A stretch of DNA of 64,000 bases from Desulfovibrio aminophilus (GTDB taxonomy: Bacteria > Desulfobacterota > Desulfovibrionia > Desulfovibrionales > Desulfovibrionaceae): NCBI RefSeq assembly GCF_023660105.1, contig NZ_JAMHGA010000012.1, forward strand, positions 248,001-312,000, read 5' to 3'. Below are positions 20,803 through 22,769 of this stretch, piece after piece (the first letter of the stretch is position 1; each line of letters begins with the position of its first letter). The translations under genes were made by a program, and so were the position numbers. The notes under the pieces are model-generated. The model saw only the letters and a program-made list of their open reading frames with translations, was not told the DNA's origin and searched no databases.

Positions 20803-21969
20803 ATGCGCACGTTCCCGCTGGCCAAGCGGCTCCAGGCCCTTCCTCCCTATCTCTTCGCGGCCATCGACAAGGCCAAGGAAGAAGTCCGGGCCCAGGGCAA
20901 GGACATCATCAGCCTGGGCATCGGCGACCCCGATCTGCCGACCCCGGAATTCATCGTGGAGGCGCTCTGCGCCGCCGCCCGCAAGCCCGAGCACCATCAG
21001 TACCCGTCCTATATCGGCATGCTGGCCTTCCGCCAGGCCGTGGCCGACTGGTACAAGACCCGCTTCGGCGTGGACCTGGACCCGGCCACCGAGGTCATGA
21101 CCCTCATCGGCTCCAAGGAGGGCATCGCCCACTTCCCCTTGGCCTTCATCGATCCGGGCGACCTGGCGCTCGTCGCCACCCCGAACTATCCGGTCTACCC
21201 CGTGACCACCGCCTTCGTGGGCGGGGAGGTCAAGTACCTGCCCCTGACCGACGAGAACGACTTCCTGCCGGACCTGGATTCCGTGTCCGAGGCGGAGTGG
21301 AAGCGGGCCAAGCTCATCTACGTCAACTATCCGAACAACCCCACGGCCGCCTCCGCGCCCCGCGGCTTCTACGAGAAGCTGGTGGCCATCGCCCGCGAGT
21401 ACGACGTGATCGTGGTCCACGACGCAGCCTATACGGAAGTCTACTTCGACCCTGCGGACAAGCCGCTGTCCATCCTGGAGATTCCCGGGGCCAAGGATGT
21501 GGCCATCGAGTTCCATTCCCTGTCCAAGACTTACAACATGACGGGCTGGCGCATCGGCATGGCCGTGGGCAACCCGAGCCTCGTGGCGGGTCTGGGCAAG
21601 GTCAAGGAAAACGTGGATTCCGGCCTGTTCCAGGCCATCCAGGAGGCGGGCATCGCCGCCCTGCAGAACGGCGAGCCCTACGCCGCCAAGTTCCGCGAAG
21701 TCTACAAGGAGCGTCGGGACGTGATGCTCAAGTGCCTGGGCGACATCGGCATCTCCTGCCGCGTGCCCAAGGCCTCGCTCTACATCTGGGCCAAGGTGCC
21801 GCATGGCCAGACGTCCCAGGAATTCGTCACCAAGGTGCTGCGTCAGACCGGCGTGGTCCTGACCCCGGGCAACGGTTTCGGCACGCCCGGGGAAGGGTAC
21901 TTCCGCATCTCCCTGACCGTGAACACCGACAGACTCAAGGAGGCTGCGTCACGGATATCCAGCTTGTAA
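20803..21969 (+). CDS. dapL: LL-diaminopimelate aminotransferase DapL
   Basis: DapL makes LL-diaminopimelate directly from tetrahydrodipicolinate with glutamate, bypassing three steps of the succinylase route. The 388-residue class I PLP aminotransferase has SLGIGDPDLPTP, YVNYPNNPT and PLP lysine K242 in SLSKTYNMTGWRIG. The start has AAGGAG upstream. It is the expected partner of lysA in this genome. Its 3' end overlaps the folK start, and the folK ribosome binding site lies inside its last codons. Confidence 0.95.
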   Translation: MRTFPLAKRLQALPPYLFAAIDKAKEEVRAQGKDIISLGIGDPDLPTPEFIVEALCAAARKPEHHQYPSYIGMLAFRQAVADWYKTRFGVDLDPATEVMTLIGSKEGIAHFPLAFIDPGDLALVATPNYPVYPVTTAFVGGEVKYLPLTDENDFLPDLDSVSEAEWKRAKLIYVNYPNNPTAASAPRGFYEKLVAIAREYDVIVVHDAAYTEVYFDPADKPLSILEIPGAKDVAIEFHSLSKTYNMTGWRIGMAVGNPSLVAGLGKVKENVDSGLFQAIQEAGIAALQNGEPYAAKFREVYKERRDVMLKCLGDIGISCRVPKASLYIWAKVPHGQTSQEFVTKVLRQTGVVLTPGNGFGTPGEGYFRISLTVNTDRLKEAASRISSL

Positions 21970-22469
21970 CCACCTACCTGGGCCTCGGCTCGAACCTCGG
22001 CAAGCCCGAGGAGAACCTGAACGAGGCCCTGGCGAGGCTGGAAAACTACGGCGCCGACATCCAGCTCAAAAGACAGTCGGCTATCTATTGGACCGAGCCC
22101 CAGGGCCTCAAGGACCAGCCCTGGTTCGCCAACCAGGTTGTCGAACTGGGCGTGGACCCGGAAATCTGGGCCCCGGAAGGGCTGTTGTCCACCTTGCTGG
22201 CCATCGAGGCCCAGATGGGCAGGGACCGCTCCTCGGAGACTCCCGGCGGCCCCCGGGTCATCGATCTGGACCTGCTCCTGTTCGGCGATCTGGTGACCGA
22301 CACGGGCTTTCTGACCGTGCCGCATCCCCGGCTGCTCACCCGGGCCTTCATGCTCGTGCCGCTGCGCGAGATCGCCCCGGGCCTCATGCTGCCCGGCGGC
22401 GTGGCCGTGGACACGGCCCTGAAGGCACTGAACCACCGCCAGGAAGGCGACCGCATCTGGCAAGACTAG
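21951..22469 (+). CDS. folK: 2-amino-4-hydroxy-6-hydroxymethyldihydropteridine pyrophosphokinase FolK, non-ATG start
   Basis: FolK transfers pyrophosphate from ATP to hydroxymethyldihydropterin in folate synthesis. The frame shows TTYLGLGSNLG at its N-terminus, an AIYWTEPQG segment, and the catalytic RVIDLDLLLFG and VPHPRL segments, with a full-length C-terminus. No ATG, GTG or TTG is available where the protein must start. An AAGGAGG at 21937-21943 lies 7 bases before an ACG codon at 21951, which I take as the start; ATC at 21957 is the other option. It overlaps the end of dapL by 19 bases. Identity is secure, the start unusual. Confidence 0.88.
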   Translation, partial: TDIQLVTTYLGLGSNLGKPEENLNEALARLENYGADIQLKRQSAIYWTEPQGLKDQPWFANQVVELGVDPEIWAPEGLLSTLLAIEAQMGRDRSSETPGGPRVIDLDLLLFGDLVTDTGFLTVPHPRLLTRAFMLVPLREIAPGLMLPGGVAVDTALKALNHRQEGDRIWQD

Positions 22470-22493: not shown

Positions 22494-22769
22494 ATGCTCA
22501 TCAAATTCCTCATCTTCGCCGTGGCCGCGTTCGTGGTCTGGAAGCTCTTCATGGGGGACCGCAAGCAGAAGCAGGTCCGCGACAAGAAGCAGGAAGAAAA
22601 CCTGGCCGCCTCCGGCGAAATGGTCAAGGATCCCATCTGCGGCACCTACGTGCGCAAGGACGGGGACATCCGCGTGCGCCAGGGCGAGACCGTGCACGTC
22701 TTCTGCTCCTACGACTGCCGCGACAAATTCATCAAGAGCCTGGAAGCGGGCCAGGACACGGCCGAATAG
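22494..22769 (+). CDS. Membrane-anchored TRASH/YHS-like metal-binding protein
   Basis: This 91-residue protein has an N-terminal membrane helix (residues 3-19), a charged linker (GDRKQKQVRDKKQEEN), and a compact cytoplasmic domain with C49 in KDPICGTYV and C71-x3-C75 in VFCSYDCRDKF. That is the TRASH/YHS-like pattern that binds a metal ion. The role may be metal sensing or delivery. A strong AAAGGAG precedes the ATG. It lies 24 bases after folK and is probably on the same transcript. Confidence 0.78.
   Translation: MLIKFLIFAVAAFVVWKLFMGDRKQKQVRDKKQEENLAASGEMVKDPICGTYVRKDGDIRVRQGETVHVFCSYDCRDKFIKSLEAGQDTAE

Follow-up and report, generated by a model that had tools for sequence, protein, structure and literature searches.

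A putative ACG start codon for folK within the overlapping end of dapL in Desulfovibrio aminophilus and its relatives

The DNA analysed here, referred to as the window, is a stretch of 64,000 nucleotides from Desulfovibrio aminophilus. Its plus strand carries dapL (20803–21969), which encodes an LL-diaminopimelate aminotransferase of 388 aa and ends in a TAA stop codon (21967–21969). The DapL protein scores 609.2 bits against the NCBIfam profile TIGR03540 (cut-off 593.25) and 626.5 against NF006756 (cut-off 507). The last codons of dapL are dual-coding with folK, which lies on the same strand (21951–22469; 172 codons counted from an ACG, stop codon TAG at 22467–22469). If the ACG at 21951 is taken as its start, the two genes overlap by 19 nt. 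The downstream product matches TIGR01498 at 116.2 bits (cut-off 54.1) across positions 2–128 of the 128-position profile, and by this match it is FolK (HPPK). A protein search of the 3.5 Mb genome returned a single folK match, and folP is also present, so this copy of folK is probably needed for folate synthesis. A small ORF after folK (22494–22769) is hydrophobic at its N-terminal end, carries the motif DPICGTYV and presumably resembles YHS-domain proteins.

The codons of the folK frame begin at positions divisible by 3, in the -1 phase relative to dapL, and this frame contains no ATG, GTG or TTG between GTG 21732 and GTG 22152. The first of these is the nearest upstream in-frame canonical codon, deep within dapL and 216 nt before GTC 21948, and an upstream canonical start for folK was ruled out at that distance. 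The second, the nearest downstream, is 68 codons in and beyond the GLGSN motif. A CTG at 21978 is located two codons ahead of LGSN, and a start there would leave just M-GLGSN. Because FolK read from the ACG gives a full-length match to TIGR01498, and alignments of solved HPPKs to it (best E 1.5e-26) mostly begin at query residue 5–9, translation is expected to start shortly before TTYLGLGSN. The preliminary description of this DNA had placed the start there and had seen no usable ATG, GTG or TTG, and both observations are confirmed. With no usable in-frame canonical codon, folK in the window would belong to the genes with near-cognate starts.

A Shine-Dalgarno sequence, AAGGAGG (21937–21943, plus strand), is contained in the dapL codons AAG-GAG-G. 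As had been noted before, it stands 7 nt ahead of the ACG (21951–21953); it is 4 nt ahead of the preceding codon, GTC (21948–21950). A third candidate start, GTA (21966–21968), lies over the dapL stop codon. The predicted N-termini are (M)DIQLVTTYLGLGSNLGK for the ACG, (M)TDIQ... for the GTC and (M)TTYLG... for the GTA. By the genetic code, NTG in the folK frame becomes TGN in dapL. In this -1 overlap, any NTG would thus force Cys, Trp or a stop into DapL, so that an ATG suitably spaced from the Shine-Dalgarno sequence is blocked.

Relatives were searched at the level of the family (199 genomes, at least 179 with folK) and of the order (101 genomes, at least 95 with folK), with junctions read for part of the loci in each search. 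Start codons were counted in 114 genomes in which the dapL match had at least 50% identity, reached residue 375 and ended in a readable E-A-x-x-R tail. L007 and L181, which lack a readable tail, were left out, as was L015 (G188, g29), because its dapL match is broken. In L015, dapL homology breaks at residue 266, perhaps through a frameshift or an assembly fault, and the dapL-folK junction (GTT-ACG) is intact. L068 was reassigned by hand to the overlapping class, and L090 and L096 to the canonical class. Canonical codons fewer than 4 codons from GSN were not counted as starts, and CTG was likewise not counted. On these rules, folK overlaps dapL without a usable canonical start in 90 genomes (22 genera, two families), overlaps it with a canonical start at the dapL stop in 7, and is found elsewhere or further downstream of dapL in 17. 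The latter two groups together served as 24 controls. In 66 of the 90 genomes there is no ATG, GTG or TTG from the last upstream in-frame stop codon to the site; this stop borders directly on the Shine-Dalgarno sequence in 12. A GTG two codons ahead of LGSN, found in eight of the 90, was judged too late for a start; four have a CTG in that position, and L048 has a CTG over its TGA stop. In six g38 genomes (L166–L171, L173–L178), folK appears as two separate matches whose joined alignments are longer (193–212 columns), which suggests an inserted segment midway through HPPK.

ACG occupies the same position in both other compared genomes of the genus, and Desulfovibrio sp. Madre1 (L005), whose FolK is 47% identical, has ATC-ACG there. 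The preliminary description had raised the alternative that a sequencing error changed ATG to ACG; this was ruled out by the presence of ACG in both other genus members and in many other genera. It had also proposed a comparison of start codons among related genomes, and this comparison found ATC or ACG kept in all 90 overlapping genomes without a canonical start, versus 5 of the 24 controls. The two codons after the Shine-Dalgarno sequence are ATC-ACG in 25 of the 90, ATC followed by another codon in 26, GTC-ACG in 27 and GTT-ACG in 12. ACG is accordingly present in 64 genomes, comprising 39 of the 39 without ATC and 25 of the 51 with ATC. A universal ACG start was rejected, as 26 of the 51 relatives with ATC carry CAG, CCG, TCG or GCG in its place. 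Three of the five exceptional controls are overlapping genomes with a canonical start (3/7; ATC, all in g5), where the canonical codon is probably recent because ATC is the rule in g5. The other two are non-overlapping (2/17; ACG). In L079 (G069, g41), dapL has kept the rare TCA-CGG even though folK is located further downstream and has an ATG of its own, probably as a relic of a recent separation of the two genes, and in L204 (g48) the ACG arises from a Gly codon. GGAGG occupies the Shine-Dalgarno position in 83 of the 90 genomes without a canonical start, in 5 of the 7 overlapping genomes with one, and in 2 of the 17 non-overlapping genomes. Fisher's test of ATC or ACG in overlapping genomes against controls gives P = 2e-17, a value that treats related genomes as independent and so overstates the contrast. 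Among eight independent, well-supported tree pairs, 3–5 agree, none disagrees and the rest show no difference. The codon appears to be conserved among relatives beyond chance, with the sign test on the tree pairs alone not significant (median p 0.0625 for ATC or ACG, 0.125 for ACG alone).

Codon choice in dapL offers a second view of the same sites. The third bases of dapL codons 382 and 383 double as the first bases of the folK ATC and ACG, respectively. At codon 382, the Val codon GTA is in the majority in 11 of 17 genera, against 1.1 predicted from the dapL codon use of the individual genera; at codon 383, TCA or TTA is found in all nine genera whose preceding folK codon begins with G rather than A, with 0.25 expected. 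This genus-level test used 79 tails, and its P values overstate because they take genera as independent. A fairer null was a ranking of bias over 379 scored dapL columns that share the tree, made with 79 of 85 tails before later genomes were added. Codon 383 ranked first (z 10.9) and codon 382 second (z 5.5), with codon 381 at 2.7, codons 384–387 at 1.5 or less and codon 388 at 2.0. Codon 377, upstream of the Shine-Dalgarno sequence, has a z of 3.6 that is without explanation. The Shine-Dalgarno codon 380 does not stand out (z 0.6), because GAG is not a rare codon. In g29 the residue at codon 383 changed from Ser to Leu and the codon is TTA in 12 of 12 genomes, which indicates that the ACG was kept. 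As judged from codon use, selection is visible at silent sites of dapL, where the bases appear to be held by rare codons. The preliminary description had named ACG or, as an option, the ATC at 21957 as the start. Clade-wide retention and the silent-base bias favour the ACG, while the ATC at 21957 finds little support: it is 13 nt after the Shine-Dalgarno sequence, ATC occurs there in just 21 of the 90 genomes, and dapL codon 385, whose third base serves as the first base of this ATC, has little bias beyond expectation (z 1.5). In relatives, ATC instead matters at the codon directly before the ACG (21948–21950, GTC in the window), and the reading for the system as a whole is "ATC or ACG", the latter being preferred for the window.

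These counts could also be explained by a start at the codon before the ACG, which would be GTC 21948 in the window and ATC or GTT in relatives, in the manner of sigR and infC. One of these three codons is found there in 90 of 90 genomes (ATC 51, GTC 27, GTT 12), and the GTA bias at dapL codon 382 is in line with such a start. Its 4-nt spacing is the commonest among 33 likely window genes with a Shine-Dalgarno sequence (6/33), 7 nt being rarer (2/33), in a gene set that is a rough guess, composed of ORFs picked by length and codon-position GC. In the three genomes of g3 and g17, the Shine-Dalgarno sequence is 3 nt further upstream and thus 7 nt before ATC, and ATC is the better reading for the 26 of 90 genomes in which it is followed by CAG, CCG, TCG or GCG. 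A GTC start has been demonstrated experimentally for Streptomyces sigR (PMC5472188). However, if GTC were the start, the invariant ACG of the 39 GTC or GTT genomes, encoded through the rare codons TCA or TTA, would be left unexplained, and this weakens ATC or GTC as the sole start. GTC also survives in six controls, five of them without ACG (three of those five in g10), making ACG the better candidate in the window, and G is the usual third base of dapL GTG and CTG codons in most of these genera. GTC therefore resembles an incidental consequence of dapL coding, whereas ACG seems to accompany the need for a start, and initiation at the preceding codon is considered rather unlikely. The ACG has its own difficulty. 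In a cell-free study of IF3, only Watson-Crick pairs were tolerated at codon positions 1 and 2 (PMC10158994), from which an ACG, with its second-position mismatch, would be expected to be read poorly and to be disfavoured by IF3.

Reinitiation after the dapL stop, at the overlapping NTA codon (GTA 21966), would give M-TTYLGLGSN, a terminus that fits the length of solved HPPKs, whose alignments mostly begin at query residue 5–9. In L024, L036, L060, L090 and L096, dapL ends in TGA, and the overlapping codon thereby becomes GTG. Other escapes to a canonical codon use an ATG at the dapL stop (L044, L103) or an ATG or GTG after it (L061, L098). Reinitiation is nevertheless very unlikely, since the codon varies among the 90 genomes (GTA 62, ATA 13, CTA 12, TTA 2, CTG 1), dapL codon 388 has little bias (z 2.0), and a start 22 nt from the Shine-Dalgarno sequence would not explain why that sequence and ATC or ACG are conserved. 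Selection against a TGA stop in dapL, which would yield GTG, was considered and discarded, since TGA is also absent from the dapL genes that do not overlap folK (0/17). The absence of TGA from the dapL stops of these 17 genomes stands against 21 of 45 likely window genes that end in TGA. Stop-codon use gives no sign that low FolK output is favoured.

Two further explanations dispense with a start codon at the ACG. Internal Shine-Dalgarno sequences can stimulate frameshifting, and with folK in the -1 frame of dapL, a -1 frameshift would produce a DapL-FolK fusion, the outcome that the preliminary description had set against a separate start. No slippery heptamer of the form X-XXY-YYZ was found in any of the 90 dapL tails, searched from four codons before the Shine-Dalgarno codons to the stop, and a fusion would leave unexplained why ACG is missing where folK lies elsewhere; it is regarded as highly improbable. 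It is equally improbable that the silent sites are conserved for the sake of an RNA hairpin, or of another DNA or RNA element, and not for a start codon. In the window, CCGTGA can pair with TCACGG around the Shine-Dalgarno sequence, and 42 of the 90 genomes keep five or six of the six pairs, but all six are kept in just four, fold z scores are -0.74 and +0.66, and a consensus fold calculated from 87 distinct sequences contains no pairs.

The interpretation favoured here, with a probability of roughly 0.7, is that folK is translated from a near-cognate start within the dapL frame, most likely ACG 21951 in the lineage of the window. An fMet-tRNA would read the ACG, FolK would begin M-DIQLVTTYLGLGSN..., and AAGGAGG would act as the ribosome-binding site that drives initiation. 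Dual coding with dapL would block a well-spaced ATG, and relatives would hold ATC or ACG in its stead. Initiation at ACG may be accompanied by low output, by damping through IF3 and by translational coupling to dapL; such coupling is probable, and it is plausible that the ACG limits expression. A more far-reaching version is put forward tentatively, at somewhat less than even odds: ACG would be a true, selected bacterial start, folK would have used ACG and ATC interchangeably since the ancestor of the order because dual coding forbids NTG, and its low output would be tuned by IF3 and by dapL translation.

A literature search covering few subscription papers found no conserved bacterial ACG start and no folK start in Desulfovibrio, and sigR and infC were its sole close precedents. 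Streptomyces sigR, whose start was misannotated and is repressed by IF3, likewise has a near-cognate start after a strong Shine-Dalgarno sequence, and the residue next to its start is Thr (PMC5472188). Unlike folK, whose ACG is proposed from sequence, sigR starts at GTC as shown by experiment, and encodes a stress-response sigma factor; the available text of that source mentions no location of sigR inside an upstream gene. The gene for IF3, infC, starts at ATT or ATC (cited in PMC5472188); it shares the near-cognate start with folK, but its mismatch is confined to the third position and it is autoregulatory. As in short overlapping gene pairs with termination-reinitiation (PMC10666635), dapL and folK overlap on the same strand and coupling is likely, though their overlap of about 19 nt with a near-cognate start differs from the common 4-nt or 1-nt type. 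The infC of the same genome (L142, G000:C21:7095–7592, minus strand) has no ATG, GTG or TTG from the upstream in-frame stop codon to the start of its match; an ATA is found 8 nt after GGAGG, and IF3 therefore probably starts at AUA.

The conservation described here suggests that selection has maintained an unusual start signal throughout a bacterial order. ACG is not among the start codons of genetic code table 11, and gene finders depend on ATG, GTG and TTG; in many genomes of the order, the annotation of folK is therefore probably wrong. If a natural gene has been kept on ACG or ATC for so long, it would offer a way to study the limits of start-codon rules, the action of IF3 in vivo, and how a normal start can be denied to a gene by its overlap with another. 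The variants found in nature, with ATC only, ACG only, both, or a rescued ATG or GTG, would constitute a ready comparative experiment.
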